Source: a virus
Virus record (IMG/VR): IMGVR_UViG_3300044972_001994
Coordinates: 1-60,834 of that record
Direction: 5' to 3' (one strand)
Length of the DNA stretch: 60,834 nt
Positions 1 through 60,241 of the stretch are shown piece after piece (the stretch's first letter is position 1; each line of letters starts with the position of its first letter). The position numbers and the translations under genes are program-made. The notes beneath the pieces were generated by a model. The model searched no databases, was not told the DNA's origin, and saw only the letters and a program-made list of their open reading frames with translations.

Positions 1-971
1 CTTACTCTGAATATGTAGCTGAGAACTTAGACAAATCTGTAGAATATTCTAAATATTTAGCAGAAAAAGTAGACGAGTCTATCCAATACTCAGAATACGT
101 AGCAGAAAAAGTAGATACTAATATCTCTTACTCTGAATACTTAGCTGAAAATCTTGATAGAGGAATTTCTTATTCTGAATATCTAGCTGAAAAAGTAGAT
201 CAAGGAATTGGATACAGTGAATACATCGCAGAAAAATTAGATCAAGGAATCGGATACACTGAATACCTAGCAGAAAATGTTAACAAAGGTATCGCTTATT
301 CTGAATATCTAGCTGAGAATTTGAACAAAGGAATTTCTTATTCAGATTATTTAGCTGAGAAGATCAAAAACAATATCGCTTACTCTGAGTATATCGCAGA
401 AAATGTAAACACTACATTTGCAGGTAGCATCAATGAAAGTGAAAACCCAAGAGAAAAGGCAGACCTTGCTTCAAGCGCAGGTCTATTCGAATCTGGATTT
501 GCAGGAGATTACACAACAATCTCTTCTAAGATAGATTCACTTATAGAATCAGTTCAAACCCAAAAAACTGAAACCCTTACCAAAACAGTTGCTGAAAGAA
601 TGCAACCAGCTGCTCAAACCCAAAAGGCAGAACAAGCTCTAAACGAAAGTGAGGAGACAGAACAAAAACCAAGTTCAGGACACAAATTCGTAGACGAAGC
701 TCCGGCAGAATACGCTCAGATTTGGGAAAGTCTAAACGAAGGACACAAACAATCTTTGATTGCTCAAGCGTCTTTCTACAATTTAGAAACCCCTTATCAG
801 ATCAAAAACTTCTGGTCAACACGTCAACTTGGTAGAAACATTGGTCTTCAAAAATTAGTTGAAAGCGAAAGTATCGAAACACCAGTAGAGAGAACAACAA
901 CTAAAGCTTATTCTAACGAATATTTAAACTTTATTGCAGAATCTTTAAATGGTAAATTCCTAAAAAAATAA
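1..971 (+). CDS. Prohead core/scaffold-like protein with 14-residue repeats (5' partial)
   Basis: The reading frame is open from base 3 to the stop at 971, so the start lies upstream of the window; the TTG at 321 is only an internal Leu codon. The visible N-terminal part is ten tandem 14-residue repeats of the type YSEYLAENLDKGIS. A low-complexity Glu/Gln/Thr-rich linker follows, then a C-terminal region ending in FIAESLNGKFLKK. The repeats look helical and amphipathic. Several sites fit the T4 gp21 cleavage rule (I/L)-x-E|(S/G/A): INES, LNES, LNEG and IAES. It lies directly before the major capsid gene, where T4 carries its core genes (21, 22), which suggests a gp22-like prohead core protein. 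The role is inferred from position, composition and cleavage-like sites; no sequence homology to gp22 was established. Confidence 0.6.
   Translation, partial: YSEYVAENLDKSVEYSKYLAEKVDESIQYSEYVAEKVDTNISYSEYLAENLDRGISYSEYLAEKVDQGIGYSEYIAEKLDQGIGYTEYLAENVNKGIAYSEYLAENLNKGISYSDYLAEKIKNNIAYSEYIAENVNTTFAGSINESENPREKADLASSAGLFESGFAGDYTTISSKIDSLIESVQTQKTETLTKTVAERMQPAAQTQKAEQALNESEETEQKPSSGHKFVDEAPAEYAQIWESLNEGHKQSLIAQASFYNLETPYQIKNFWSTRQLGRNIGLQKLVESESIETPVERTTTKAYSNEYLNFIAESLNGKFLKK
3..422 (+). repeat. Ten tandem 42-bp (14-residue) coding repeats
   Basis: Ten in-frame units of exactly 42 bp. The consensus is Y-S-E-Y-(L/V/I)-A-E-(N/K)-(L/V)-(D/N)-x-(G/S/N)-I-x. Every unit keeps the (L/V/I)-A-E triplet. 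Units differ at synonymous sites, so the array is old rather than freshly amplified. It may extend upstream of the window. Confidence 0.95.
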
Positions 972-996: not shown

Positions 997-2709
997 ATGA
1001 AACTTATTAACGAACAAGAAATTTTTGATACATGGTCTCCAATCATCGAGTCTAAAACTGGTATCAACGATTCATCAAAAACTCAGTGGTTAGCTAAATA
1101 TTGCCATTACCACTCATTAAACGAATCTGCCGGTGCTTACAACTCTTTAGCAGTTGTTAACGGTATGGGTGCAGTTACACCTCCAAACTTCCCAGGATCT
1201 ACTTTAGGTGCTGTTAGTAACGGTGGTCTTACCCCTAACCAAGGATTCTACAGCTCAACCTGGCAAGGTTCTGGCGATAAATTCCCTTCATTACTTCCAT
1301 TAGCTATTCAAGTAGCTGCGAAGACTGTAGGATTTGATATCGTTCCAGTTATCCCTATGTCTGGTCCTTCTGGAGTATTATCTTACTTAGATTATGTGTA
1401 TGCTGGTGGTAAAATCAGTCCTAGCTCTGCTGGAACTACAGCTGCTGAAGCTTTAGCAGTTGCTCCTACAATGATTAAAGTTCCTGTAGGTTCTACAGCT
1501 TCTGCTTTAGTAGTAGGTACTGTTTACTACATCGCTGCTGCTACTTCTGCAGGTGCTGCTTTAACTACTGCTTTCGTAGGTTACTCTAGAATCGATGGCT
1601 TCCCAATCTTCAGAATCACTGGGGTTACTGCAGGTGAAACTGTTGCTGATATCGTAGCTGCTGGTTCTACAATCGGTACAGGAAGTGCAGGTAGTGTTAC
1701 TGGCGGTGGATATGCTACTGGAGTTGCTCAATTGGTTAAAGCATTAGAAGATCACATCCAAGGTTTCTCTGGAGCTGGTTTCTATGACAACCAAGCTTAC
1801 CAAGGTCCATACGTAGATGGTACTAAGTCTTACAATCCAATGTTGAGATCTGTTGCGGAAAGCACTTATTACAACTCAATGGGTCTAACAACTTTCACCA
1901 AATTCGTTGAAGCTGACACTTTCCAAGTAGCTGCTTCTGTAACAACTGAGCAAATCCAAGATTTGAACAAACAGTTTGGTATTGATGTTATCTCTATGAT
2001 CGAGAATGCATTGGTAAATGAGGTTTCTCAAGCTATCAACAAGCACATCTTATCTAGAGCATTCCAATTAGGATGGTCTAACTGTTACAACTTCAACGCA
2101 ATTGAAGGTCAAAACTTAAACCTTAACCTTGTAATAGGCGGTGCTACTTCTGGTTCTACTGCTCTAGATTACTTAGGAAAAGAAGATACTCAATTGTTCA
2201 TGTCAATTCCAGGAGGTCCTGCATCAGGTACATACGAGAACTTATCAACTCTACAAAGAAGATTATTCTCTAGAATCCTGGCAGCTGCTAACGTTGTAGC
2301 TAATAGAGGTAGAAGAGGTCCAGCTAACTTCATCGTTACTAACGCTAACCTAGCGTCTGCAATGCAAGATATTAGCCAATTCACTTTCGCTCCATTTGCT
2401 AACACTTTAACTCAAAACAACGGAACTCTATATCCAGTAGGTTCTCTAGCTGGTATGACAGTATATGTTGACCAGAACATGAGATTCTCTGATAACAGAA
2501 TCCTAGTAGGTAGAAAAGGTGGCGACGACGAACCAGGTCTTAAATTCATGCCTTACATGATGGCGGAGTCAATCCAAACCATCTCTGAAGGTACTATGTC
2601 TCCTAAGATCGCAGTTAAATCAAGATACGCATTAGTAGAAGCAGGTTTCAACCCAGAAACTTTATACTTCACTTTCTACGTTCAAACTCCAGTTGGAGGA
2701 TTAAACTAA
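997..2709 (+). CDS. gp23: Major capsid protein, T4 gp23-like
   Basis: 570 residues, compared with 521 for T4 gp23. The C-terminal half has features I recognise from gp23: RGRRGPANFIVTNANLASAM, a segment around GSLAGMTVYVDQNMRFSDN, and GLKFMPYMMAESIQT followed by KSRYALVEAGFNPETLYF. The N-terminus carries SLNE|S at residues 40-44, matching the gp21 protease rule, so the mature protein probably starts at Ser44. Residues about 145-245 form an Ala/Gly/Thr/Val-rich insertion that may be a surface domain. Asn and Phe codons are mostly AAC and TTC, unlike most neighbours, as expected for a very highly expressed gene. A strong terminator follows. The start is ATG after an A-rich leader with no Shine-Dalgarno sequence. 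Confidence 0.93.
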   Translation: MKLINEQEIFDTWSPIIESKTGINDSSKTQWLAKYCHYHSLNESAGAYNSLAVVNGMGAVTPPNFPGSTLGAVSNGGLTPNQGFYSSTWQGSGDKFPSLLPLAIQVAAKTVGFDIVPVIPMSGPSGVLSYLDYVYAGGKISPSSAGTTAAEALAVAPTMIKVPVGSTASALVVGTVYYIAAATSAGAALTTAFVGYSRIDGFPIFRITGVTAGETVADIVAAGSTIGTGSAGSVTGGGYATGVAQLVKALEDHIQGFSGAGFYDNQAYQGPYVDGTKSYNPMLRSVAESTYYNSMGLTTFTKFVEADTFQVAASVTTEQIQDLNKQFGIDVISMIENALVNEVSQAINKHILSRAFQLGWSNCYNFNAIEGQNLNLNLVIGGATSGSTALDYLGKEDTQLFMSIPGGPASGTYENLSTLQRRLFSRILAAANVVANRGRRGPANFIVTNANLASAMQDISQFTFAPFANTLTQNNGTLYPVGSLAGMTVYVDQNMRFSDNRILVGRKGGDDEPGLKFMPYMMAESIQTISEGTMSPKIAVKSRYALVEAGFNPETLYFTFYVQTPVGGLN

Positions 2710-2831: not shown

Positions 2832-3875
2832 ATGAAATTAATCCCAAGTTATCAAGAATTCGTAGATAATATGTCTCTAACCGAAAAAATTAGCCCTGAA
2901 CTTGCAGAAAGTTTAGCTGCGGATTTAGAAGAAATTGAATCACTAAACGAAGGAGTCTTAGATTCAATTAAAAACACTTTATCCAAGACTTTTTTAGGGT
3001 CTCTATCTTCTATCAATATGATAGATAAATCAAGAGAAATGATATTGAAAGACCGAAAAGATCTTCTTAGCAAAAAATATTCTCATGAGGATGAAATTGA
3101 ATCATTGAATGCTAGTCTAAAAAAAGCTCAGGATGACAAAGACACTGCTAACGCAGATAAAATAAGTAAAACCATAGCCAACAAGGAGAATGAGTACAAG
3201 ACTTACGTAAACATGATTAATAAAAGAATCGAGAAGACTGAGGATGTGGCAGAAAAAATAATTGAAGGGAACAAGAGAAAATCCGAATATTATGATGCAG
3301 GAGTATCTCAAGATGAGTTAACAATTGCAGAGTTTGAATATAAGCTTGCAAAATCAAGATCTAATGTAGATCCAAAAGAAATTAAAGAACTTGAAACTAA
3401 GATTCAAACTGCTAAAGTAGAATCCGAAAAAGCTCAGGCAGAATTGAAGGCAAGCGAAGAAAAAAAAGCAAAAGAAGCTGAGGACAAAAAAGAAAAAGTT
3501 AAATCCGAGCTTTCGTCTCAAGTAGATGAAATTGATTCTAAAATAGAAGAATTAGAAAAGAAAATCGAAGAATTACAAGTTAAAAGGATACAAAACAAAA
3601 ATAAAAGATTAAGTCCAGTAGATCAGGACTCTTTAGAGTCAAACAAAGCTTCTTTAAAGAAGATGAAGGATCGTAAGAAAGATATAGAGAAAGCTCTAAG
3701 AGGATCTGGATCCAGAAAGAATCAAAAGCTTGATAAATACGTGGATTTTACCAAAAATCAAAAAAATGCTAAACCTGTTCTGACAGCTAGCAAAGGAGGT
3801 AAAGCGGATAAAGAGGAAGCTGGAGCATCAGCAGCTTCAAAACCAAGAGGAAGAAGAAAAAGATCAAATAGCTAA
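2832..3875 (+). CDS. Tagged head protein, coiled-coil rich
   Basis: 347 residues. The N-terminus MKLIPSYQEFVDN resembles the capsid-targeting sequence of T4 internal proteins (MKTYQEF...). A gp21-type site SLNE|G falls at residues 37-41. The rest is charged, Lys/Glu-rich and strongly helical, with long heptad stretches around residues 85-125 and 190-290, and a basic tail PRGRRKRSNS. This composition fits a DNA-contacting internal or core head protein that is packaged and trimmed by the prohead protease. It is the first gene of a unit, and the next gene starts 2 nt after its stop. No specific family recognised. Confidence 0.6.
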   Translation: MKLIPSYQEFVDNMSLTEKISPELAESLAADLEEIESLNEGVLDSIKNTLSKTFLGSLSSINMIDKSREMILKDRKDLLSKKYSHEDEIESLNASLKKAQDDKDTANADKISKTIANKENEYKTYVNMINKRIEKTEDVAEKIIEGNKRKSEYYDAGVSQDELTIAEFEYKLAKSRSNVDPKEIKELETKIQTAKVESEKAQAELKASEEKKAKEAEDKKEKVKSELSSQVDEIDSKIEELEKKIEELQVKRIQNKNKRLSPVDQDSLESNKASLKKMKDRKKDIEKALRGSGSRKNQKLDKYVDFTKNQKNAKPVLTASKGGKADKEEAGASAASKPRGRRKRSNS

Positions 3876-3877
3876 TA

Positions 3878-4741
3878 ATGACTACTTTAAAATTCACAGA
3901 TTGGGATAAAGCTTATTATTCTATAGATGAATCCTTAGGGGAGAACATCCATAACTGGCTGAGCAAAAACTTCGGAGGTAAAGTTAGTGAAATAGACGGA
4001 ATTCTTTCTGACATAGTTCGTGCAGAGAAGGAGTATTCTAAGGAATGGGAAAAACTAGAACTTGAAAATGATTCCATGAAATCCCAAATAGAATCAGGAA
4101 GCTTAGAAGAGAAAGAAGAGAAAGAACTAAGGAAGAAGATAAAAAACAATACAGAGTTAATTTCTATTTCTCTAAGAAAAAAGAACCAAAAGGTTAGAGT
4201 ACTGGATTCGAAAGGTGATAAAATAGTTCAAGGAAATCCTAGACTTAGTAAATACTGGGAGCTAAAAAAAGCAGAATCTGATCTAGAAATAATAGAAAAT
4301 CTTTATAAAATATCCAAGAACCTTTCGGACAAAGGGATTCAAGATGATCTATATGGAAAATATAAAAGATCATATTCTTCTCTACAAGGCAAAAAAGAAA
4401 AAGCCGAAAAGGTAGAAAAAGAAATTGACACAGAAGAGGATTCCTCTTATGATGATTCTGAGCTTGAATCACTTATCTCTATGAGTAATTCTAAATTCAG
4501 AGATGAGACTGAAGAATATTCTCCAAGAGAGATAAAATCTCTCAAGAGGGATTTAATAAATCAAAAGAATTCTTATATGAACGATTTAAGAATGCTCAAA
4601 AAGAGAAAAGAGAAAGAATCAAGTTCTGCTTCAACTTCTAGGGAAAGAAAGGAAATAACTACTAAGTTTAGCCCTAAGATCTCTGCATTAGGAGATAGAA
4701 TAGATAGAATAAGAGAAAAAATTGCAATTCTAAATGACTAA
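3878..4741 (+). CDS. Tagged head protein, charged helical
   Basis: 287 residues. The N-terminus MTTLKFTDWDKAYYSIDES contains an I-D-E|S site at residues 16-19, matching the (I/L)-x-E cleavage rule. The remainder is very rich in Lys, Glu and Ser and predicted mostly helical or coiled-coil. Composition resembles the preceding gene, so the two may be distant paralogues. Its stop overlaps the next gene's start region by 8 nt (4734-4741), indicating coupled translation. An internal head protein is inferred from the tag and context; no family recognised. Confidence 0.5.
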   Translation: MTTLKFTDWDKAYYSIDESLGENIHNWLSKNFGGKVSEIDGILSDIVRAEKEYSKEWEKLELENDSMKSQIESGSLEEKEEKELRKKIKNNTELISISLRKKNQKVRVLDSKGDKIVQGNPRLSKYWELKKAESDLEIIENLYKISKNLSDKGIQDDLYGKYKRSYSSLQGKKEKAEKVEKEIDTEEDSSYDDSELESLISMSNSKFRDETEEYSPREIKSLKRDLINQKNSYMNDLRMLKKRKEKESSSASTSRERKEITTKFSPKISALGDRIDRIREKIAILND

Positions 4742-5021
4742 TTTAATTACCAGATATAAAAATTTCCTTTTTGAAGCAGAAGGAATGAATGCTAAAATAG
4801 AACAAACAAAACTTGAAATAGCAAAAATTCATGACGAAATTACAGCTGCAAAAGAGGAGGCAAAGGCTAAGAAAAAAGCAGACCCAAATAACGTTGCTGC
4901 AGACATAGATAGCATTAAGAAGCAAGCAGTTTCTTATGGAAAATTACCAGCTCTAATGACAACTCTTGCGACTCAGATGGCGGAATCAGCTAAACAAAAA
5001 AGTTCTGCAAACATTTACTAA
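4734..5021 (+). CDS. Small tagged head protein
   Basis: 95 residues. The N-terminus MTNLITRYKNFLFEAEGMN is a close match to the tag shared by this block: basic/hydrophobic start, aromatic-x-x-F, then L-F-E|A at residues 12-15. The body is a short Lys/Ala/Glu-rich helix around residues 20-50 and a second helix near the C-terminus. It overlaps the preceding gene by 8 nt. Size and composition are like small internal head proteins; the function after packaging is unknown. Confidence 0.5.
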   Translation: MTNLITRYKNFLFEAEGMNAKIEQTKLEIAKIHDEITAAKEEAKAKKKADPNNVAADIDSIKKQAVSYGKLPALMTTLATQMAESAKQKSSANIY

Positions 5022-5030
5022 CAGAATCAT

Positions 5031-7448
5031 ATGACACCAAAATATTTAAATACCAACCCTATAGCAAAGATGATGTCTTTGGAAACTCTTAGAATTTTCG
5101 AAAACGAATCTGTTGACGAGTTGATGCAAAAAATATCAACTTCTTTATTTGATATTTTTAAAAAAGTAACCGTAGATTTTTCAACACCGAAGCAAAGAAA
5201 AATCACAACAGTTAAGGAGAAATTAAAAGACACAGCAAATTCTTCATCTCTAAAATCGATGGTAGCAAAGATGAAAGATTATGCAAAAGAATCAGAGCTG
5301 GAACATTCTTCTTTTGCCGATGTTAAATCTCTTTATATTGATGGAATGGAACAACTTGCAGATTCTTTAAAAAGATCTGTTGAAGTTGACCCTAAACTGG
5401 AAGACAAAATCATCAAATATTTTCAAACCAGAACCACTAGGTATGTTCAAGCTTTAGACCAAGCTTATAAGCACGAAAAAGAAGCTTTGAATGAATCTGT
5501 TCAGATGGGATTGAAAGGGAGAGTTAATTCTTTAAAGAATAAATTACAGAAAGTTCTAATCCCAGAATCTGTTGGAAAAACCGACGATAATGGATATGGA
5601 AGAAACTGGCACAGAATTTTCAGTGAAATCGATCAGAAACTTTCGGTTATTGATGGAAAGAAAGAAATTTCTAACGAGAAAGAAAAGAAAGCTTTGAAAG
5701 ATCTAGAATCACAAACCGATAAATTATCTAAAGAATTCTATACATATTGCATTAAAGCTACTGAAGCTCCTTTTAAAAAGATCCTATCCGACGACGAAAT
5801 ATCTTCTAAATTCGAGGATGTAAAAGAAATTCTTTCTGGAGCACTTGACGTTTTAACTAGAGCTACTGTGGAAGAAGCTAGCGTGGAAGACCGAACTAGA
5901 GAGAAAATGGAAGGTCACGACAAGAAGGTTACTTCTATGGTTTTTCCTATTAAAGTTGGAGATAAAGACACAGATAAGAAATTTAAGGAATCTCTAATCA
6001 TTGCAAACGTTCAGAAAGCTCTAATGAATGCTTTTCCTCCGATTAAAGATCTTCTTGTTAAAAGAGGAGGAGCGGACGGTAAATTTACCTCAGCTTTCGA
6101 AGTAGCCATTAAATCTCTACAAGGAGTTCTTGGAAATAAAAATGTTAGTGGTGAACTTGATAGAAATTTACTTGACATCATTTTGGATGCTGATAAGATT
6201 TCAAATTCAGATAAAGAATCTATCGCTGACAGTTTAGACATTCTAAGAAAAGAATATGTTAACGAGAGCATAGAATTTATGAAAGGAAAATCTGTCGATG
6301 CAAGAATTTTAAATTCTTCACAGTTTTTTGGCCTTGTAAACGAATCCTCTATCCACATTGATGCAGATAAATTAGCTTCAGAAGTAGAGAAATATGAGAA
6401 AGAACTTTCTGAACCTGCAACTTCCAAAGGCGGAAGATCTGCTTTGGGCCACGGAGACAATTCAGATAACACAGATTTAGCTTACACTCTTGCTAAAATT
6501 TTAAGAAGCAAAGGGTTAGTTAAAGATGCGGAAGAAGAAACCTTCTTAAGAGAAGATGGATCTCTCAGAGCATCATATACCCCAGAATTTATGAATGGAT
6601 GGATTAAAACTGCTGAGGAAGCAGATAAAAATGATCCCCCTTTATATTTTTGGGTTGATTTCAAAGGAAGTAAAATAGATGGATTATATGCTTCTAGAAG
6701 ACTTTCAACTAGTGCAAAGAAACCTTGCAACTGGCCTAAGTGGAGTGAAATTGCAGGAGATACTGATAGCGAGGACGTTAAGAATTTTTCCGAATGGTAT
6801 ACAAGCTATTACTCTAATTTTGGAGGAATCGATACGAATTCTTTAACTTCCCTTGCTAAATCTATTTTTGATTACAACAGAGAAGAAAAAGAAGAAAATA
6901 GCAAAGTTTACGATAAACTTTATTCTTATTTTGGAACTAAAGAATATAAAACCAATTATGTTCCTTCTGATGTTCTAGAGTCAATCAAAAGTGCATTTAG
7001 AAGAGGGTCTCAAGTCGATGAGAAAATTCAAGACTTAACCGAATCTGATTTTGGACTACTTGCAAATTTAATAGCATTCAATGCTACAACTTTTACCTTT
7101 GATAGCAAGGGAGATAAATTTGTTCCTGTTTTAGAAATAATAATGGATGAGATTTTAACAGAATCGGAACTTAAAAAATTATCTTCTGAAGAAATTCTTG
7201 CTTCTGACGAACCAAGTTCAGATCAAGTTGCAATTCTAGACACTAAAAAAGGAATCAGAAAAGCTAACAAACAAGATAGAGAATCAGGGGAAAGCAGAAA
7301 TAAATCTGTATTTGAACACAATTTAAAAGAAGCTAAAACTCATCATCTACCAATTGTTGAAAAACAAGTTGCTAGAATGAACGCTAAAACTTCTGACGAT
7401 CTTTCAAAAAGAGAATCTAAGAGAATCTATAAGGTTCCTATCGAATAA
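5031..7448 (+). CDS. Large probable head-associated protein
   Basis: 805 residues, mostly helical and charged, no transmembrane segment, no recognised domain. Near the N-terminus the sequence MMSLETLRIFENES contains I-F-E|N and E-N-E|S. If translation began at Met14 or Met15 (about 5070) instead of Met1, this segment would lie in the same position as the tags of neighbouring genes. Another LNES occurs at about residues 153-156. It sits inside the run of tagged genes and is probably packaged or processed too. A large internal virion protein is the best guess, by context only. Confidence 0.45.
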   Translation: MTPKYLNTNPIAKMMSLETLRIFENESVDELMQKISTSLFDIFKKVTVDFSTPKQRKITTVKEKLKDTANSSSLKSMVAKMKDYAKESELEHSSFADVKSLYIDGMEQLADSLKRSVEVDPKLEDKIIKYFQTRTTRYVQALDQAYKHEKEALNESVQMGLKGRVNSLKNKLQKVLIPESVGKTDDNGYGRNWHRIFSEIDQKLSVIDGKKEISNEKEKKALKDLESQTDKLSKEFYTYCIKATEAPFKKILSDDEISSKFEDVKEILSGALDVLTRATVEEASVEDRTREKMEGHDKKVTSMVFPIKVGDKDTDKKFKESLIIANVQKALMNAFPPIKDLLVKRGGADGKFTSAFEVAIKSLQGVLGNKNVSGELDRNLLDIILDADKISNSDKESIADSLDILRKEYVNESIEFMKGKSVDARILNSSQFFGLVNESSIHIDADKLASEVEKYEKELSEPATSKGGRSALGHGDNSDNTDLAYTLAKILRSKGLVKDAEEETFLREDGSLRASYTPEFMNGWIKTAEEADKNDPPLYFWVDFKGSKIDGLYASRRLSTSAKKPCNWPKWSEIAGDTDSEDVKNFSEWYTSYYSNFGGIDTNSLTSLAKSIFDYNREEKEENSKVYDKLYSYFGTKEYKTNYVPSDVLESIKSAFRRGSQVDEKIQDLTESDFGLLANLIAFNATTFTFDSKGDKFVPVLEIIMDEILTESELKKLSSEEILASDEPSSDQVAILDTKKGIRKANKQDRESGESRNKSVFEHNLKEAKTHHLPIVEKQVARMNAKTSDDLSKRESKRIYKVPIE

Positions 7449-7452
7449 AATT

Positions 7453-8208
7453 ATGATGAAAAGAATTTACTCATTTAGAGAATTTATTTTAGAAGCAGAA
7501 ATGTCTATTAGTAACCCAGAAGAAGCTGGAGATAAATTTGCTAAAATATTAGGTGATCATAAAGACACTAAAGAATCCCCCAAAGGATCTAATAAGGGAC
7601 CCGAAGTTACTGCTTATCTTAAAAGCACAGGACTTCCTGGAGGAAACCCTTGGTGCATGGCGTTTGTTTATTATGTTTTTCAAGAACTATCTAAATCATT
7701 AGGAACTACGAATCCTCTAGTAAAAACTGCAGGGGTTAAGGATCATTGGAATAAAGCGGATAAAAGCTTAAAAATTGATATAGCTAAAGCTAAAGCAGAT
7801 CCTAGTCTAGTTAAACCCGGTCAAATCTTTATTATGAGCCGTCCTGGAGCAGGTCTAGGGCATACGGGAATTGTTCTAAGCGTGGATCCTTCTGCAAAAA
7901 CTATTACTACCATAGAGGGAAACACCAACGATCAAAAGTCTGGAGAGGGAGATAGAGTTGGTATAAACAAAAGACCTTTGAATGGAACACCTTTCTTAGG
8001 ATTCATCGATTATTTTAAGTCAAAAAGAACCCCAGAGTTCGAAAAAAATATAGTAAAAGCTTTGAGTCCTAGCGAGCTTGGAAAAATTTCTACACTTTCT
8101 GCTTCTAAATCCTCTGATTTTCCTGAGGCGGGTGTTACCATTCCAATAAGCGCAGAAGCTATTTTGAAAGCCTGGGCAGAATCAGAAAAAAATCCTATAA
8201 AATTCTAG
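7453..8208 (+). CDS. CHAP/NlpC-like peptidase with capsid-targeting-like tag
   Basis: 251 residues. Residues 1-16, MMKRIYSFREFILEAE, are the clearest match in the window to the T4 capsid-targeting sequence, with I-L-E|A at 12-15. The body has a papain-like amidohydrolase signature: NPWCMAFVYYVF with the candidate nucleophile Cys68, GHTGIVLSV with His137, and TTIEGNTND supplying the third polar residue around 155-157. Such domains cleave peptide crosslinks of peptidoglycan. There is no signal peptide. With the tag it may be carried inside the head and delivered on infection; alternatively it is an ordinary lysis enzyme. The domain is well supported; packaging is inference. Confidence 0.75.
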   Translation: MMKRIYSFREFILEAEMSISNPEEAGDKFAKILGDHKDTKESPKGSNKGPEVTAYLKSTGLPGGNPWCMAFVYYVFQELSKSLGTTNPLVKTAGVKDHWNKADKSLKIDIAKAKADPSLVKPGQIFIMSRPGAGLGHTGIVLSVDPSAKTITTIEGNTNDQKSGEGDRVGINKRPLNGTPFLGFIDYFKSKRTPEFEKNIVKALSPSELGKISTLSASKSSDFPEAGVTIPISAEAILKAWAESEKNPIKF

Positions 8209-8314
8209 GTCTGATAAATTTAAGGAATTCTTAGCAAAGAAATTCTATTAATTTACTGAATGGATTCTTATATTTTATAAAGGAACAAGTTAACAACATT
8301 CCTCTATAAATTAT
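8209..8314. other. 106-bp intergenic spacer, no gene
   Basis: AT-rich spacer. It contains a weak inverted repeat AGGAA / TTCCT (8281-8285 and 8299-8303) shortly before the next ATG, and an AT run TATTTTATAA (8271-8280). No convincing copy of the GATATATA box is present, so the downstream kinase and asnB genes may be read through from 2799 or use a different promoter. Confidence 0.4.
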
Positions 8315-8854
8315 ATGCTTACAATATTTGAAGGAGCTAGAAATTCCGGAAAAACCCATCTTGCAAACCTTGCAGCATCCTATAATAAAATTCCGATCTT
8401 TAAGTTCGAATTTGTGGATTGGTTTAATCTTTTAAAACTAGAAGACTCTTCAGAAGGAATACACCTATTTGCTCTTGGTAAAGAAATATCAATCCAACAG
8501 ATGAATCGGGAAGGTATTCTCCCTGATATGATAATGGATAGAGGATTTCTAACTGTAATCGTTTGGGGAATACTATCTAAGAGAATATCAGAAGAAAATG
8601 CTTACAAACAATTAGATCTAATAATTTCTCTCGGATTATTAAAAAATTCTAGAGTTTATTATATCCATGGGGACAATCCAAACAAGTCCAGCAGAAACAA
8701 AGATAATTGGGATTTCATGGACAATACTTCTATAGAAAAAAAACTCTATGAGAAGTTCATTAAATATCTTAAAGAGAATACAGATCCTTCCGAATTTGAA
8801 ATTTATGTTTTTGAAAACAAATTTGATGAATCATCTATAATTAAAGAATTATAA
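8315..8854 (+). CDS. P-loop kinase-like protein, possibly (deoxy)nucleotide kinase
   Basis: 179 residues. A Walker A motif GARNSGKT lies at residues 7-14 directly after a hydrophobic first strand. A DMIMDRG segment at 71-77 resembles the D-R-(Y/F) motif of thymidylate/deoxynucleoside kinases. The length fits small phage nucleotide kinases. Substrate residues cannot be assigned by eye, so another P-loop phosphotransferase is possible. It has no capsid tag, so it is probably a soluble enzyme in the infected cell. It is followed after 3 nt by asnB, suggesting co-translation. Confidence 0.6.
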   Translation: MLTIFEGARNSGKTHLANLAASYNKIPIFKFEFVDWFNLLKLEDSSEGIHLFALGKEISIQQMNREGILPDMIMDRGFLTVIVWGILSKRISEENAYKQLDLIISLGLLKNSRVYYIHGDNPNKSSRNKDNWDFMDNTSIEKKLYEKFIKYLKENTDPSEFEIYVFENKFDESSIIKEL

Positions 8855-8857
8855 TTT

Positions 8858-10258
8858 ATGTGTGGAATATTATTAACTCTAGATGGATCCGAATCTTCTC
8901 TAGGCTCAATTAAACATCGCGGGATAGAAAGAACAGTGGTTGAGAAGAATGGCGTGTTCTTATGTCACCATAGGCTCCCTATACAGACAGAAGATGGGGA
9001 TACTTGGAACCAACCAAGAGAAATATCCCCTGGAATTTATCTAATGTTCAACGGAGAGATTTTTAACTATGATAGGGTAGTTTATTCTTCAGATACAGAA
9101 TATCTTTGTACCCTCTTCGGAATGTATAAAGGTGGATCTTTTGAATTATTTACTGCTTTGTTCCTTCCACATATTCAATTATGGGATGGATTCTGGGCTA
9201 TCGTTATCTACGATTCGAATACAGGAGACATAATTTCTTTCACAGATCCACTCGGAAAGAAACCTTTATACTATAGCGAGAATGGAGAAATATGTTCAGA
9301 GATAAAAGGTCTTGCATACAATCAAAGTCCAATAGATCAAGTTTTCATTTCCGAAACTAGAAAATGGGGATACAATACTGATAACAGAACTCCATACACT
9401 GACGTAAAGAGATTTATACCAAATACAATTTACTACTACAATATAAAATCTCCAGATTTTAAAACCACTTACCCTGCTTATTATAAACTTTGGGATTCCC
9501 CTATTCCAGAACTTTATGAAAAGTCCTACGAAGATCACATGGATTGGCTTTGGAGAAAAATGATAGAGTCAGTTCAGAATAGATTGATCTCTAAAAATTA
9601 TCCAATCTCCCTCTTAATTTCAGGTGGTTTAGATTCTTCTATTATTGCAGCAATTCTTCAAGGAACAGACACTGATGTTACTTGGTATAGCATAGAAAAT
9701 GGAGAATCCGAATTTGTAAATATCTTATCCGAGAAATTTGACAAGAAAGTAAATTTTCTAAAGTATGATATGGATGATTCTTTGAATCAAATAATCTATC
9801 AATACTGGAACGAAACTCCTATTGATTTAGGATCTGTTATACCCCAGTATCATCTCTTCAAAGCAATCAAAGATAATAGCGACCATAGAATTGTTATAAG
9901 TGGGGACGGAGCAGATGAGTTATTTGGTGGATATAGAAGAATTCACGAGTATGATTCACAGGCTTCTGATATTTTTGAAGAGCTAACATATTACCATCTT
10001 CCAAGATTAGATAAAATGTCAATGGCTCATACTCTAGAATTGAGAAGTCCTTTTCTAAATCTAGAGATTGTTAGATTTGCTTTAAATCTTCCCCTTGAAT
10101 GGAGAAAGGATAAAAAAATTCTAAAAGATACTTTTGCTCCACTTCTCCCAGAGGAGATTATAAATAGGGATAAAGCTCCTCTTAAAAATCCAGGCATCAA
10201 GGAAGACAAGATAGCATACAGATATAAAGCCATAGATTTATTTCTCCAAGGTAGATAA
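8858..10258 (+). CDS. asnB: Asparagine synthetase (glutamine-hydrolysing), class II amidotransferase
   Basis: 466 residues, somewhat shorter than cellular AsnB (usually over 500). The glutaminase half starts with the catalytic Cys2 (MCGI) and keeps RLPI (39-42), FNGEIFNY (64-71) and SDTEY (78-82). The synthetase half has the PP-loop SGGLDSS (255-261), SGDGADELFGGY (348-359) and MAHTLELRSPFLN (389-401). Both sites look intact, so it should transfer ammonia from glutamine to a carboxylate, classically aspartate to asparagine with ATP to AMP. It lies in a late head-gene block 3 nt after a P-loop kinase-like gene. It could supply Asn for the Asn-rich virion proteins or amidate another acceptor; the acceptor is not decidable from sequence. 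Confidence 0.9.
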   Translation: MCGILLTLDGSESSLGSIKHRGIERTVVEKNGVFLCHHRLPIQTEDGDTWNQPREISPGIYLMFNGEIFNYDRVVYSSDTEYLCTLFGMYKGGSFELFTALFLPHIQLWDGFWAIVIYDSNTGDIISFTDPLGKKPLYYSENGEICSEIKGLAYNQSPIDQVFISETRKWGYNTDNRTPYTDVKRFIPNTIYYYNIKSPDFKTTYPAYYKLWDSPIPELYEKSYEDHMDWLWRKMIESVQNRLISKNYPISLLISGGLDSSIIAAILQGTDTDVTWYSIENGESEFVNILSEKFDKKVNFLKYDMDDSLNQIIYQYWNETPIDLGSVIPQYHLFKAIKDNSDHRIVISGDGADELFGGYRRIHEYDSQASDIFEELTYYHLPRLDKMSMAHTLELRSPFLNLEIVRFALNLPLEWRKDKKILKDTFAPLLPEEIINRDKAPLKNPGIKEDKIAYRYKAIDLFLQGR

Positions 10259-10275
10259 TTTACTATTTTAGAAAG

Positions 10276-10284
10276 GATATATAG
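10276..10284 (+). promoter_or_regulatory. Putative late promoter box GATATATAG
   Basis: GATATATAG lies 19 nt before the ATG at 10304 in the short gap after asnB. Spacing and sequence match the boxes at 2799 and 12112. Confidence 0.7.
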
Positions 10285-10303
10285 TCTAAAAATATTCTTA
10301 TAA

Positions 10304-10933
10304 ATGAGTAAAATTATAAAGAACTTTTCAGAATTTGAATCCGCAAATGAGGGATTTGATGTTACCAGTCTACTAGGAAATCTTGGAGACGTAGGAGCAG
10401 ATTTAGTAAAAAGTAAAGCAGCAGAATATCTATATGGATATTTAGGAATAAAACCCGAATCTCTGTTAGGGACTATTATCTCTAAATTAGTACAGACTGT
10501 AGATTTCAAAGAATACTGGGATATTATAACAGGAAAAGGAGATTTTCCTATAAGTAAAATTGCTCCTAAATTGGCAGATGCAACTATTGAGGTAGTTACA
10601 GACAAAGGTGTTGATGGAATTGCTTCATCTTTCAATTCAACTTTAGATAAGAACGGATTAATTTACAGAGCAATAAAAGAAATGATTACTAATCAATCTA
10701 GAAAAGCTGAATTTAGAGAAAATCTAATTTCTATGTATACTTCTATACTTACAGCAGGAAAAGGAGGTTTAAGTTCCCCTAAAAAGAGTCCTTTCACTTT
10801 TACCCCTTCAGAAGCAAAAACCTTGGCAAGTGACCCTGCACTAAAACAAAAAGCTGCTTCGGGATCTGGATCTACTGACTTGGTTCAATCTCTCTTTGGA
10901 GGAAAAGCATCAACAGGAACCACACAAGGATAA
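10304..10933 (+). CDS. Tagged probable internal head protein
   Basis: 209 residues. The N-terminus MSKIIKNFSEFESANEGFD has the block's tag pattern (basic, aromatic-x-E-F) and A-N-E|G at residues 14-17 as the likely cleavage site. The middle is Ala/Leu/Lys-rich with LLGNLGDVGADLVKSKAAEYL near residue 25, and the C-terminus is a low-complexity Gly/Ser/Thr tail. No enzymatic motif seen. First gene of a unit under the box at 10276. A packaged protein is inferred from the tag. Confidence 0.5.
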   Translation: MSKIIKNFSEFESANEGFDVTSLLGNLGDVGADLVKSKAAEYLYGYLGIKPESLLGTIISKLVQTVDFKEYWDIITGKGDFPISKIAPKLADATIEVVTDKGVDGIASSFNSTLDKNGLIYRAIKEMITNQSRKAEFRENLISMYTSILTAGKGGLSSPKKSPFTFTPSEAKTLASDPALKQKAASGSGSTDLVQSLFGGKASTGTTQG

Positions 10934-10951
10934 TAAAACAATTTAAAAATT

Positions 10952-11344
10952 ATGAATTTAGAAGACATTTCAAAAAGAGAAATTTTAGATTTTAAGAAAT
11001 TTAGATCTAAAGTTATGGACGATACATTTAAACCTTTAGCCCCAGAAAATCAAGATCCATTGAGTTCTGCAAAAACTGGTTTACACCAAATCAAAAGACA
11101 AGCTGCTTATGATTGGGTTGGATATGCAAATGCAGTATTTAGTCCAGATAAAGCTGGTATTACTTTCCCTGGATTTAATTCTCAAGGAGATAGAAATTAC
11201 GTAAATGGTGTTGGTGTGACTACTGTTGATTTACAAAATAAAGCAGCTCAGCCAAACTCGGTTTTCAATATGGATACCAGCGAATCTGAAAAATTTAATG
11301 CTAAAGAATTTAAAGTCCTAAGACTTAACGAATTCAAAGGCTAA
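10952..11344 (+). CDS. Hypothetical virion-associated protein
   Basis: 130 residues, not recognised. The N-terminal 25 residues are charged and helical (ISKREILDFKKFRSKV); the rest is polar with aromatic and Asn/Gly-rich stretches. A C-terminal RLNEFKG places an (I/L)-x-E site six residues from the end, which could allow C-terminal trimming. It follows the tagged 10304 gene by 18 nt. Its stop overlaps that of the convergent minus-strand gene. Confidence 0.45.
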   Translation: MNLEDISKREILDFKKFRSKVMDDTFKPLAPENQDPLSSAKTGLHQIKRQAAYDWVGYANAVFSPDKAGITFPGFNSQGDRNYVNGVGVTTVDLQNKAAQPNSVFNMDTSESEKFNAKEFKVLRLNEFKG

Positions 11345-12054
11345 TCTGGATCAATTTCCCTAAGGAATTTTTCCTTAGCAATTTTAAAAATCTCCGAGCT
11401 CTGATTAAAGGTCTCGGAGATTTCTATGATAATACAGGGGAATTTTTCCATAGAATCGACTCCTGCTGCAACTAGAATCTCGCACATAATAAATTCATAA
11501 GACATAGAATAGTAATCGTGCGGAATATAAATAGGCTTCATCATAACGCCTTTTTTAACTTCCTCCCCTATTCTAATTTCGGTTTTATTCCACCAGTAGG
11601 TAAAGATCTCGTTAGAAGTCATGCTTCTAAATATAACCATCCCATTCTTTTTATTATCGGTTACAACTTCTAGACTGTGGATCTTAATTTGATCCTCCAG
11701 ACTTCTTAAAAGTTTTAGACCACTCTCTGCATATTTTCCTAGCACTCGGAGAGAATTTTTTATTATCTCATCTATTTCTCTAACCTCATCATCTGAAAAA
11801 TACCCATTAACATAAGAATCCAGCAAATCTAAATCCTCTTCTGATAGATTCTCATCTAAGAAATTCTCTAGAGTTCTGTATTGGTAGAAATGGTCTAATT
11901 CTTTAGAAAGAGATAAGACAGTTCTAAGAGGTGAATGGAAGTTATCTTTTTTAATTTCTTGGCTGACCGATTTTAGAAAATCCAGAAGAATATAGTATTT
12001 TTCTTCGACGTCTATCGGATCTTTAAGAAACCAAACAGGACTCAGAGTTTTCAT
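11341..12054 (-). CDS. Hypothetical acidic protein on the minus strand
   Basis: 237 residues, rich in Glu, Asp, Leu and Ile, with no motif I recognise and no transmembrane segment. It is one of only two minus-strand genes in the window. Its own promoter-like box GAATATATAA lies 26 nt upstream (12081-12090 complement), so it is probably expressed with the late genes. The stop overlaps the stop of the plus-strand neighbour. Two perfect inverted repeats lie in its 3' end and may terminate opposing transcription. Confidence 0.6.
   Translation of the reverse strand: MKTLSPVWFLKDPIDVEEKYYILLDFLKSVSQEIKKDNFHSPLRTVLSLSKELDHFYQYRTLENFLDENLSEEDLDLLDSYVNGYFSDDEVREIDEIIKNSLRVLGKYAESGLKLLRSLEDQIKIHSLEVVTDNKKNGMVIFRSMTSNEIFTYWWNKTEIRIGEEVKKGVMMKPIYIPHDYYSMSYEFIMCEILVAAGVDSMEKFPCIIIEISETFNQSSEIFKIAKEKFLREIDPD
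11360..11378. other. Inverted repeat CTAAGGAA-ttt-TTCCTTAG
   Basis: A perfect 8-bp stem with a 3-nt loop, 16 nt after the plus-strand stop at 11344, inside the 3' end of the convergent minus-strand gene. It could act as a terminator for plus-strand transcription while remaining coding on the other strand. No long T-run follows, so activity is uncertain. Confidence 0.4.
11388..11423. terminator. Possible bidirectional terminator: 11-bp perfect inverted repeat
   Basis: AAATCTCCGAG (11388-11398) and CTCGGAGATTT (11413-11423) are perfectly complementary across a 14-nt loop. The stem has a GC-rich core and an AAA/TTT end, as in bidirectional terminators. It lies just downstream of a plus-strand unit and inside the antisense gene. 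A U-tract is short on the plus strand. Confidence 0.4.
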
Positions 12055-12080
12055 AGCCTTAATTTAGTTATTGAGTTAAC

Positions 12081-12090
12081 TTATATATTC
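12081..12090 (-). promoter_or_regulatory. Putative late promoter box GAATATATAA (minus strand)
   Basis: The reverse complement of 12081-12090 is GAATATATAA, 26 nt before the ATG at 12054. It is back-to-back with the plus-strand box at 12112-12120, giving a compact divergent promoter region. Confidence 0.55.
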
Positions 12091-12111
12091 GAATGATAAA
12101 AATTCAATTTA

Positions 12112-12120
12112 GATATATAG
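12112..12120 (+). promoter_or_regulatory. Putative late promoter box GATATATAG
   Basis: GATATATAG lies 19 nt before the ATG at 12140, the same spacing as at 10276 and 26936. Confidence 0.7.
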
Positions 12121-12139
12121 ACAAAAGAATCTAATTTAT

Positions 12140-12574
12140 ATGCCAAGAGTCGAAGATTATAATAGCTATTTTGCAGGAAAGAATAAAAATTTCTCTAATG
12201 AGCACTATTTCATTTCCAGTTTAGGTTACACAGATATTGTTGTTATTGGGAACCCACCAGAAATAACCAACGTAGATGATGCTAAGTGTGAAGTTGAATA
12301 TGAAGCTGTAGTTTCCAGAAATACAAAGGGGATAGATGGAATAGACTTCAAAATCCACAGAATAGAACTTGAGATAGCTGTAGATGATTATCCCAATGAT
12401 AAAAAAACTTTCGATTTTGAAATCGAACCTGGCATCAATATAAATCCAGAAATGGTAATGGCAGATCCCTTGGAATACATTCTTCCTACATATCCAACAC
12501 AGATTAGAATCGATATGAGAAAATCGATGGAAGTAAAAGATTTCAAGGTAATGGTAAGTTTTGGTAGAGACTAA
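12140..12574 (+). CDS. Hypothetical protein, possible tail/neck component
   Basis: 144 residues, acidic, with alternating beta-prone segments (DIVVIGNPPEI, CEVEYEAVV, IELEIAVDDYP, FKVMVSFGRD). It has no capsid tag, unlike the gene that follows. A small beta-rich virion protein is plausible, but no family is recognised. Its stop shares one base with the next ATG (TAATG), indicating translational coupling. Confidence 0.5.
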   Translation: MPRVEDYNSYFAGKNKNFSNEHYFISSLGYTDIVVIGNPPEITNVDDAKCEVEYEAVVSRNTKGIDGIDFKIHRIELEIAVDDYPNDKKTFDFEIEPGININPEMVMADPLEYILPTYPTQIRIDMRKSMEVKDFKVMVSFGRD

Positions 12575-13545
12575 TGAAATTCAATTCTGTATATAACTTT
12601 GACGATTATTCATATTCTCTTAATGAAGGAAATTCATATAAGAAAGATCTTGGAATCATAGGCCCCTTTTCGGATCAATGGGGGTATAAGATCAGAACTT
12701 CTTGCCCTTCCGAGGGGGGAGAAGAATCAGATTCAATTCTTCTAGCAGAAGAATCTGGAGACGGAAATATAATTTTAAAATACAATTACCCTGGAGGAAG
12801 TTCATCTCTTCCACTTTCTATGGGATGTTTTGATATTACCGGTTCTCCTAAGAACCCAATACTTCAGACTAGAAAAAATTCTAAATGGTGGGATGAAGAA
12901 AAACAAGAAGATTTTGATTCCTTTATAGATTCTTTTATCGAATCTAAATTTTTTACTGTTGATAAATCTGATTCTGCACACGAAGACATTTCCGATATCT
13001 TAGATCTTTTCGGAATAGAATCTGAAATTAAAAACATCGAAAAGAAAAAAGATCTACATTGGATTGCATATTTGGACAATGGATCAGAAATAGAACTTAG
13101 GAAAAAAAACGATAACAATTTTCTTAAAAGTTTAAAAATTTATCTGAATAAAGATTCATATTCCCCCGAGGTGGAAATACGTAAAGATGGAACTGGATTT
13201 GAAACTACTTTCTCTACTCCAAAGGGTAAGTTTACTAGAAGAGCAGAAAAATTTAGCGATGTGTATAAAGATCCAATTCATAAGTATCTTTTTCATTCTA
13301 GTATGAAGAAAGATCCGACTCTATATCATGAACCTGTTATGAATTATTTAAATTCAATTTTAAAAAATCACGACTGGAGACCTCCTTCTAAAAAAAATCC
13401 AGAAGAAGTAAAGTTAAGAGAATTTGAGATTAACAGGATTAAAAAGATGCTAACTAATACTATAGACGAATCTGCCCTGGATGAGATTTATTCTAGAGCT
13501 AGAGAAAAATATTCTAAAGACTCTCCCTCGACCCGAAACTCTTAA
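12574..13545 (+). CDS. Tagged probable internal head protein
   Basis: 323 residues. The N-terminus MKFNSVYNFDDYSYSLNEG shows the tag shared by this block, with SLNE|G at residues 15-19, nearly identical to the sites in the capsid protein and the 2832 protein. The body is charged and mixed alpha/beta (residues 55-90 Ser/Gly-rich, 130-230 Lys/Asp/Glu-rich), without a recognised domain. The start is fixed by the tag and the TAATG overlap with the gene before it. A candidate for delivery into the host with DNA; function unknown. Confidence 0.55.
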   Translation: MKFNSVYNFDDYSYSLNEGNSYKKDLGIIGPFSDQWGYKIRTSCPSEGGEESDSILLAEESGDGNIILKYNYPGGSSSLPLSMGCFDITGSPKNPILQTRKNSKWWDEEKQEDFDSFIDSFIESKFFTVDKSDSAHEDISDILDLFGIESEIKNIEKKKDLHWIAYLDNGSEIELRKKNDNNFLKSLKIYLNKDSYSPEVEIRKDGTGFETTFSTPKGKFTRRAEKFSDVYKDPIHKYLFHSSMKKDPTLYHEPVMNYLNSILKNHDWRPPSKKNPEEVKLREFEINRIKKMLTNTIDESALDEIYSRAREKYSKDSPSTRNS

Positions 13546-19567: not shown

Positions 19568-21943
19568 ATGGGAATTAAAGCAACAGATAAAAATAGGTCC
19601 TTATTTCTAAAAGGGTTTAATCTTTCTAATTCAGGAGCGAATGAGGATCCAACCTATCTTGGATTTAAGTTTGTATTTGATTTTGGATCTCTTCCGGTAA
19701 ATCTGGAATATGGATGGGCCCCGAGTCCTTTACTAAGAATCCCCAATTATACAAGTGTAAATGGTGCTGCCAATATGCCAAAAAATTTATTTGGTCAACC
19801 TCAGTACCAAAACGTAAATAGCAATGTTACCTATTATTCTGCTTATAATTATTTGCTTGAGAGAGATGGTTCTTATAGAGGATCAAATGGTCTAAAAAGA
19901 GCAAATGCTTTAAAACAATTTCAAATCCTTCTCAATAACATAAATTCAAATGCTCCTTGGTTTTTTCAATCCATAGATGGTCTAGATAAACTTGAACAAA
20001 TTGCTCTTTCCGGATTTCAAGACGAACAGGGTATGGATTCTTTCGATCCTGCAAGAACAAACAGGAAGACACTGAAAATAAATTGTTTAGAATCTTTAAA
20101 TTTAAGAATGACAGCTCTTGCAAATCTATATAATCAAGCAACTTTTGATGCTGATAATATGAGATGGCTTGTTCCTAGAAATTTGAGAAAATTCACAATG
20201 TGGATTTACGTAACGGAGATTAGAAATTTTTTCAAAACGACTAGATTAACTGGAACTTCTGCTGTAATTTCACAATTAGATGATCTTACTTCTTTACTTA
20301 CTAGCGACAGAAACCCAGGAGGAGCTATTTCAAATACCCCAGAAGGAGAAAGACAACCATCTGGCCCAGGTGCACCTGGAAATGCTTTCAATTCATTTGC
20401 TAGAGGAGTTTTATCCCAATCTGGACTAATGAACGAAGTAGATTCTTTTAGAAACCAGCAAGATCAAAGCGGGATAAAACCAGTTTTAATTTATGAGCTA
20501 AGTCAATGTGAATTCGATTTTAGTGAAAGTACCCCATTACAAACTTCTGTAGATGTAGGGATACAACCAAATGCAGCTACCCAATCTTTTAAGATCCACG
20601 TTGGAAAGGTTAGAATGAAAACTCAATTCCCCAACATCAGAACGGATAATAATTATCTTGTACTTGCAGATGGATACGATCAAAATAAAAGCTCGGTTCA
20701 AATTTATTCTGACACTTTAGATTTAGAAACCATCGTTAGCTTAGGAAGGGAGGCACTAACTAACATCACATCTCAAGCTATTAGTGATCTTATAAACGAA
20801 GGAATTAGTCAGCTTGTAAACCCAACTACTTCTGGTATCGATCAAACTTCACTCGGAAATATCTACACTTTTAACCCTTCCCAATTAGCCAGATTGACCA
20901 ATCAAGGTGGCCAATTTGGATTTAACAATGCTCAGAATTTTTTAAATGGGGCAGCAGATACAGGTATAGATAATGTATTTAAAGGAAATCTACCTACACC
21001 TCAATCAATGGGTCTTGGTGGTCCACCGGATAGACTTTACCCAATTATACAAACGGATAAAGACGTTTATTCTGGGGTTCCAGGACCAGATCTAGGTGTT
21101 CCTGGAAGAGTTTATCCTGCACCAGGTGGAGACGTTTATTCTGGGGTTCCGGGACCAGATCTAGGAGTTCCCGACAGAGTTTATCCTGCACCAGGTGGAG
21201 ATGTTTATCCAGACGTTCCTGGTCCAGATCTAGGTGTTCCTGGAAGAGTTTATCCTGCACCAGGTGGAGACGTTTATTCTGGGGTTCCGGGACCAGATCT
21301 AGGAGTTCCCGACAGAGTTTATCCTGCACCAGGTGGGGACGTTTATTCTGGAGTTCCTGGACCAGATCTTGGGGTTCCTGATAGAGTTTATGTTGATCCA
21401 ACAGGAGATGTTTATCCAAATTCTCCGGGCAGGGATCTTGGAGTTCCTGATAGAGTTTATGTTGATCCAGCAGGAGATGTTTATCCAAATTCTCCAGGAA
21501 GAGATCTTGGAGTTCCAGATAGAGTTTATGTTGATCCAGCAGGAGATGTTTATCCTACTGTTCCAGGAGGAGATCTTGGGGTTCCGGATAGAGTTTATAA
21601 AGACCCTTCTGGAAAAGTCTACCCGGATCCAGCAGGAGCTTCAATATTTCCTGGCCAAGATATAGGAAAAGTTTATTCTCCAGGGACTTTAATTTCTTCG
21701 GGATCTGAATTAAGATCTCCTGAAAATACCTTTCCTTCACCTCCTTCTCCAGTTTATGCACCACCGACGTTTAACTATCAGAGAGGGGAGATTGGAAAAA
21801 TTTACCCACCGACATCTGGGGACTTTATTGCAATGGCTCCTATTGATTTAGGAAACACCAAAGGTCCAGATAAATTTAACATAAGTCTTGGAACTTTAAA
21901 TCCACCAGACCAAACTGATTCACCAACTAGTCCAATAATATAA
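19568..21943 (+). CDS. Baseplate/tail protein with 23-residue Pro/Gly repeats
   Basis: 791 residues. The N-terminal 480 residues are a structural domain: YLGFKFVFDFGSLPVNLEYG at about 32-51, RNLRKFTMWIYVTEIRNFF at about 203-221, and ELSQCEFDFSESTPLQTSVD at about 316-335, which suggest a tail-tube or hub-cap-like fold. Residues about 499-682 are eight 23-residue repeats, followed by a degenerate ninth unit and a Pro-rich tail. It sits between the hub-like gene and the gp5-like spike gene, 1 nt before the latter, so it probably forms part of the central baseplate. The repeats may be an extended stalk or a ruler-like linker (inference). Confidence 0.6.
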   Translation: MGIKATDKNRSLFLKGFNLSNSGANEDPTYLGFKFVFDFGSLPVNLEYGWAPSPLLRIPNYTSVNGAANMPKNLFGQPQYQNVNSNVTYYSAYNYLLERDGSYRGSNGLKRANALKQFQILLNNINSNAPWFFQSIDGLDKLEQIALSGFQDEQGMDSFDPARTNRKTLKINCLESLNLRMTALANLYNQATFDADNMRWLVPRNLRKFTMWIYVTEIRNFFKTTRLTGTSAVISQLDDLTSLLTSDRNPGGAISNTPEGERQPSGPGAPGNAFNSFARGVLSQSGLMNEVDSFRNQQDQSGIKPVLIYELSQCEFDFSESTPLQTSVDVGIQPNAATQSFKIHVGKVRMKTQFPNIRTDNNYLVLADGYDQNKSSVQIYSDTLDLETIVSLGREALTNITSQAISDLINEGISQLVNPTTSGIDQTSLGNIYTFNPSQLARLTNQGGQFGFNNAQNFLNGAADTGIDNVFKGNLPTPQSMGLGGPPDRLYPIIQTDKDVYSGVPGPDLGVPGRVYPAPGGDVYSGVPGPDLGVPDRVYPAPGGDVYPDVPGPDLGVPGRVYPAPGGDVYSGVPGPDLGVPDRVYPAPGGDVYSGVPGPDLGVPDRVYVDPTGDVYPNSPGRDLGVPDRVYVDPAGDVYPNSPGRDLGVPDRVYVDPAGDVYPTVPGGDLGVPDRVYKDPSGKVYPDPAGASIFPGQDIGKVYSPGTLISSGSELRSPENTFPSPPSPVYAPPTFNYQRGEIGKIYPPTSGDFIAMAPIDLGNTKGPDKFNISLGTLNPPDQTDSPTSPII
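21062..21613 (+). repeat. Eight tandem 69-bp repeats (23 residues each)
   Basis: Eight exact-length in-frame units with a core of the form DVYSGVPGPDLGVPDRVY followed by PAPGG, VDPTG, VDPAG or KDPSG. Units 2 and 4 are identical in protein and units 6 and 7 also, indicating recent duplication or gene conversion. A degenerate ninth unit follows. The array creates long spurious open frames on both strands. Confidence 0.97.
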
Positions 21944-59995: not shown

Positions 59996-60241
59996 ATGAG
60001 AAAATTTTCAGAACTTACCAAAATAAACGAGATGAAGTATGGTCAACCAATGTACGGAAAAAATGACCACAAACAGCACATGAAAGATGTGCTAGTTGCT
60101 GCTTCAGGTAACGATCAAAGGGTTTTAAACGATATAGTTGATTGTTTAACCGACGATCAAATGGAAAAGTGTTACGACAAGCTAGTTAAAGTTTATCAAT
60201 TTACAGGACAAGTAGGACAAGCAGTAAAGCCTAATATGTAA
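59996..60241 (+). CDS. Small tagged protein
   Basis: 81 residues. The N-terminus MRKFSELTKINEMKYG resembles a shortened capsid tag with I-N-E|M at residues 10-13. The rest is helical, with DVLVAASGNDQRVLNDIVDC and two Cys residues (about 51 and 60). Small helical internal protein is plausible; the cleavage site has Met at P1', less usual than Ala/Ser/Gly. No family recognised. Confidence 0.45.
   Translation: MRKFSELTKINEMKYGQPMYGKNDHKQHMKDVLVAASGNDQRVLNDIVDCLTDDQMEKCYDKLVKVYQFTGQVGQAVKPNM

Follow-up and report, generated by a model that had tools for sequence, protein, structure and literature searches.

The window, i.e. the whole stretch of DNA analysed here, is a viral contig of 60,834 bases from IMG/VR, and its first base already lies within a cluster of head genes. 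Phage records searched at the DNA level gave no match to the locus. By the major capsid protein, the closest named relatives are uncultured huge phages, the Lak phages, Tenacibaculum phages, PAU and others. The features of the window are listed below; a vertical stroke marks a predicted cut, and n is the number of sequences compared.

3..971, plus strand: C-terminal part of a protease-scaffold fusion, 5'-truncated by the contig start (open frame 3; full-length homologues in relatives carry an N-terminal Peptidase_S77).
3..422, plus strand: ten tandem 14-residue scaffold repeats, consensus Y-S-E-Y-L-A-E-N-L-D-K-G-I-[SA] (translation; 273 distinct units from relatives).
997..2709, plus strand: major capsid protein of the T4 gp23 family (Pfam Gp23, E=2.1e-38), predicted cut LNE43|S (nt 1123-1125); LNES in 62/62 clade A loci.
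2832..3875, plus strand: coiled-coil protein with the tag MKLIPSYQEF (nt 2832-2861) and a predicted cut at LNE|G, after E40; aromatic residue 10 and E40 invariant (n=52).
3878..4741, plus strand: protein with the tag MTTLKFTDW (nt 3878-3904) and a predicted cut at SIDE18|S; aromatics 6 and 9 and E18 invariant (n=54).
4734..5021, plus strand: small coiled-coil protein, tag and site RYKNFLFE14|A; F11 and E14 invariant (n=14).
7453..8208, plus strand: CHAP-domain peptidoglycan hydrolase (Pfam CHAP, E=1.2e-11, residues 63-157), tag and site SFREFILE14|A; tagged orthologs in large contigs.
10304..10933, plus strand: helical protein, FSEF tag, site ANE16|G (NFSEFESANE16|G); F11 invariant, F8 and E16 in at least 90% (n=32), with indels between tag and site.
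10952..11344, plus strand: candidate with an LDFKKF pair at residues 12-17 and no site; pair in 37/37 distinct orthologs (shuffled 7%), site in 0.
12140..12574, plus strand: candidate with an N-terminal DYNSY pair and no clear site; 94% of the orthologs have the pair (shuffled 55%) and 12% a site.
12574..13545, plus strand: tagged protein, FDDY tag, site LNE18|G (NFDDYSYSLNE18|G; translation); 2/2 distant orthologs tagged.
59996..60241, plus strand: small protein, weak candidate, site FSELTKINE12|M without the aromatic pair; second aromatic in 0/2 orthologs.

A sequence-only reading had claimed that seven proteins, starting at 2832, 3878, 4734, 7453, 10304, 12574 and 59996, share a T4-like targeting tag and a protease site on unrelated bodies. 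Translation confirmed all seven open reading frames at these positions. Six of them have an aromatic-x-x-aromatic pair followed by x-x-Glu, whereas 59996 has the site only. Basic and hydrophobic residues precede the aromatic pair in the tags, and the tags run for 10-20 residues up to the site (40 in 2832). The same reading had proposed a motif search; with the pattern [ILV].{1,2}[FY].x[FYW] in residues 2-20, 9 of the 46 window genes matched, as against 1.8 +/- 1.3 in 300 shuffles. A T4-type tag and a gp21-type site on unrelated bodies are supported by the sequence; moreover, these phages encode an S77 protease, and their capsid protein has the matching LNE|S.

The tag was also conserved in the orthologs. 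Among distinct orthologs, the tag fraction was 0.80 for 2832 (n=55), 1.00 for 3878 (n=53), 0.77 for 4734 (n=13), 0.80 for 7453 (n=5) and 0.86 for 10304 (n=36), as against 0.07-0.23 after shuffling, and the site fraction in these five families was 0.86-1.00. The control gene 8858 (asparagine synthetase-like) had a tag fraction of 0.00 among its orthologs, and the control gene 5031 had 0.31 versus 0.23 when shuffled. Alignment of four unrelated families showed that the second aromatic is invariant and that the site Glu is kept in 97-100%, and in the 10304 family the linker from tag to site varies in length through indels. Because the second aromatic and the Glu are each conserved and the linker length is variable, they represent two separable elements. 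Structure prediction of the bodies was also proposed in the sequence-only reading; the AlphaFold model of 10304, of low confidence (pLDDT 61), showed a disordered tag, and no significant Foldseek match was obtained.

The scaffold repeats (nt 3-422) were absent from the sequence-only reading, and they are the most informative part of the locus. In 215 relatives of three capsid clades, a single frame upstream of the capsid gene combines a gp21-family protease with a scaffold that contains a tandem array of 11-15 repeats of 14 residues, YSEYLAENLDKGI. The typical copy numbers in the three clades are 13-15, 12-14 and 11. Peptidase_S77 was above the family cut-off in the fused gene of two of the three relatives tested; the search of the window gave no S77 match, because the contig begins inside the fused gene. 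A Met at residue 236 of the fusion is conserved in clade A, the pattern being present in 50/62 clade A loci and rarely or never in clades B and C, which only suggests a nested scaffold start inside the fusion. The array is also present in the 735-kb genome LR756501. Runs of the repeat were found in two non-scaffold proteins of huge phages (LR756501 and LR745206), as expected for a portable docking module. No cultured phage with this scaffold type was among the matches listed in phage records. The AlphaFold model of the fusion was left aside (mean pLDDT 49); its repeats were helical at low confidence.

The tag was also counted in the N-termini of other genomes. Observed and shuffled matches were 43 vs 12.7 and 49 vs 12.3 in G003 and G002, large contigs that are relatives of the window, and 51 vs 18.8 and 40 vs 17.4 in the uncultured huge phages LR756502 and LR756500. 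The tiles that were read covered most of G003, G002 and LR756500 and about 380 kb of LR756502. The excess over chance is about 25-40 tagged proteins per genome in these four repeat-bearing relatives. The count was not above shuffles in PTm1, pT24, MaF61 and T4, and PAU showed a weak excess (12 vs 6.9, z 2.0). Since repeat-bearing and repeat-free phages may differ by descent, the co-occurrence of tag and repeat is not independent evidence.

The 27-39 tagged proteins per genome fall into 27-39 families, i.e. about 30 unrelated families. MAFFT consensus sequences of unrelated tagged proteins were MxxIxxFxxF...NE and MKxIKxYxxFxxE. The bodies behind the tag in the relatives include adenylate kinase, RimK-like ATP-grasp, SLT transglycosylases, CHAP and SET proteins, a leucine-rich-repeat family, and a metallopeptidase that also has a VWA-like domain. 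For example, the tagged adenylate kinase has a near-complete ADK domain from residue 27, with the tag ahead of it. PADLOC gave few matches on the tagged bodies, and none was counted as evidence for a role. Literature searches gave no match to the tag and repeat strings. In a de novo motif search on the N-termini, general N-terminal composition dominated and the tag motif emerged weakly.

The tag resembles the scaffold repeat. A matrix was built from the repeat units alone, without any tag, and applied to T4, where the internal proteins IPI-III carry the capsid-targeting sequence MKTYQEFIAEA (Mullaney and Black 1996; reviewed in PMC9026906 and PMC9958956). Of the 49,312 T4 heptapeptides, those in the tags of IPII and IPIII ranked 1 and 2; the two tags are identical and therefore count as one observation. 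Only 8 of the 5040 column permutations did as well, and the result was independent of the pseudocount. IPI ranked 116 of 259, and its cut site lies further away. The same matrix also ranked the genes of the window: the seven of the sequence-only reading scored higher than the remaining 39 (Mann-Whitney p=1.2e-4). The reciprocal test, with matrices trained on tags, used seven genome pairs. In four of them scaffold repeats were recovered, with 4-9 of the top 25 windows versus 0.16 expected; in the other three pairs there was no recovery within the top 25. The scaffold protein gp22 of T4 showed no array, and its best heptapeptide ranked 19; T4 therefore does without array mimicry.

The likeness is not complete. 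In the tags, Phe is favoured, as is a hydrophobic residue at -3, whereas the repeats use Tyr and Ile at -2. The capsid protein sites are LNE|S in 62/62 loci of clade A and INE|N in 78/79 of clade B, and the sites near tags favour Asn at P2 (49/148) and Ser, Ala, Asn or Gly at P1'. In the scaffold repeats, P2 is Ala in 90% and P1' is Asn or Lys. Because the repeats differ from the capsid sites at P2, the likeness is more than a common cutting site, and the P2 and P1' differences indicate that the repeats resemble the targeting half of the tag more than its processing half.

A mechanism for cargo loading may be proposed. During prohead assembly, the amphipathic aromatic-x-x-aromatic segment would dock a tagged protein into the scaffold core. 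The docking would be by mimicry: the tag would imitate one repeat unit (Y-S-E-Y-L-A-E) and fill the position of a repeat, either in the core or at a surface bound by the repeats. After closure of the shell, the scaffold-fused S77 protease would cut after the nearby x-x-Glu, the tag would leave and the body would remain in the head. Packaging, cutting and docking of the tagged proteins are what we infer from the sequences. The tag is very probably a T4-type capsid-targeting sequence, and the whole explanation, in which such a tag docks cargo by repeat imitation and is then cut off, appears probable. Docking by scaffold-repeat mimicry is the best mechanism at hand, and it may be correct, with the balance slightly on the side of doubt. 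A wider reading is more tentative still: the cargo tags could be single copies of the scaffold repeat, so that in giant phages from three or more capsid clades unrelated proteins would be loaded by the dozen through mimicry, and the T4 targeting sequence could be a survivor of the same code.

Other explanations were weighed against this proposal. A chance origin was considered, since short motifs are easily seen where N-termini contain much K, I, F and E, and shuffling predicts about 13 of the 43 matches to the pattern in one genome; with about one third of matches expected by chance, single tag assignments are uncertain. For the tag as a whole, chance is hardly credible and was rejected on the shuffling counts and the ortholog conservation: the enrichment has z values of 5.5-11.6 in the five repeat-bearing sequences, and the motif is conserved across orthologs of several unrelated families. 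It is also improbable that the motif forms an amphipathic helix which directs proteins elsewhere, e.g. to the host membrane or a replication compartment. The basic and hydrophobic residues ahead of the aromatic pair would suit such a helix, whereas the conserved protease site, and the agreement of the motif with the scaffold repeats and with the residues mapped as targeting in T4, argue against it.

The likeness of tag and repeat might instead reflect the preference of the protease only, both being substrates of the fused S77 enzyme, with targeting by another contact. L/I-x-E suffices for T4 gp21 (PMC9026906), the repeats contain Y-L-A-E, and T4 gp22 is cut at many places. However, nearly every capsid site of clades A and B is LNE|S or INE|N and the tag sites favour Asn at P2, where the repeats have Ala; moreover, the aromatic pair is not part of the x-x-E core, from which it is conserved separately. 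This explanation is rather unlikely. A possibility of more weight, which we still lean against, is that the tagged proteins are normal building parts of the core or scaffold that help to form the large head, like T4 gp67, gp68 and the IPs, and not effectors. The coiled-coil genes 2832, 3878 and 4734 adjoin the capsid gene and have orthologs in most relatives, and their products look like core or scaffold parts more than effectors; elsewhere, however, the tag precedes the enzymatic and leucine-rich-repeat domains named above. A core role would be compatible with the tag as a targeting sequence. The sequence-only reading had also suggested that the proteins may be injected and act in host takeover or anti-defence; for the window bodies, injection and anti-defence roles are speculation. 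Such roles can occur, as T4 IPIII is required for infection of one E. coli strain (PMC9391042).

The likeness of tag and repeat, preferred here as the sign of docking by mimicry, suggests a testable code for cargo loading into phage heads. A scaffold array resembling the tag provides a concrete binding hypothesis, and the sequence rule yields predictions of packaged proteins for uncultured giant phages, LR756501 among them.

Several known systems are comparable. In lambda (C/Nu3) and the herpesviruses (UL26/UL26.5), protease and scaffold are also in one frame, as here; the protease or scaffold families differ. In phage P1, the N-terminal 30 residues of DarB suffice for packaging of a reporter (PMC9024508); unlike the tagged set here, the Dar proteins have no common consensus, and there is no separate scaffold. 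For phiKZ and SPN3US, the available part of one report (PMC5694885) gives most mapped head propeptides as much longer, often >100 residues, and in that part no short common tag is described and no gp22 counterpart confirmed. These are likewise giant phages with many packaged proteins cut by a prohead protease, packaging and cutting being predicted in the present case; as far as that part of the report goes, the window tags differ from the long propeptides in being short and shared. PAU has its own tag, MK[TS][IL]xxLYE[ANS]KLNE[AS], on unrelated proteins (the 'internal capsid proteins' gp142 and gp154), and LYE[AS] occurs in 17 of its proteins versus 0.5 when shuffled; the PAU tag differs in having no second aromatic, and the PAU scaffold has no YSEYLAE array.

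The closest parallel is with T4. As with gp21 and gp22, the S77 protease and the scaffold lie directly upstream of a gp23-type capsid gene; whereas gp21 and gp22 are separate genes, here they form one frame, with 11-15 near-identical 14-residue repeats that are absent from gp22. Unlike the T4 IPs, with three or four carriers, about 25-40 carriers above chance are found per genome, the linker from pair to site is variable, many carriers have an [ILV]-x-x lead, and the scaffold has an array of a similar motif. The T4 IPs are otherwise similar: the N-terminal 10-20 residues, aromatics at i and i+3, a hydrophobic-x-Glu site, unrelated bodies and a gp21-family protease are common to both. In T4, mutations showed that residues 4 and 7 (Tyr4 and Phe7) function in targeting, and residues 8 and 10 in processing (PMC9026906). 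The aromatic pair and the predicted processing site of the giant phages mirror this arrangement, being separable as mapped in T4.

The scaffold repeat, a 14-residue tandem unit in the fused S77 protease-scaffold gene upstream of the capsid gene, was nearly constant in copy number within each of the three capsid clades of relatives (about 13-15, 12-14 and 11; L001-L080 and L218-L377), and the number per clade could be related to head size. The repeat was also found in two non-scaffold proteins:

L387:1123-1746, protein of the uncultured huge phage LR756501 (207 aa, three repeats)
L386:1453-1704, protein of LR745206 (83 aa, about four repeats)

The head cluster of the window also includes an asparagine synthetase-like gene (8858-10258), which is kept in relatives. 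In the tail region, tandem PGxDLGVPxRVY repeats (21000-21700) lie inside the protein 19568-21943, and a P-loop ATPase-like ORF (VKGQAGSGKTLLACQ; 39241-39927, minus strand) is located among tail genes of the opposite strand.

The LDFxxF motif (residues 12-17) of the window protein 10952-11344 was kept in all 37 distinct orthologs, none of which contained a cut site. In the huge phage LR756500 (tiles L198-L217), the N-terminal tag MKYIKEYEEFLLEA was highly uniform; some of the proteins that bear it belong to a family of six leucine-rich-repeat paralogs. Sphingomonas phage PAU (L086) has a distinct tag, MK[TS][IL]xxLYE[ANS]KLNE[AS], carried by annotated internal capsid proteins and related proteins.
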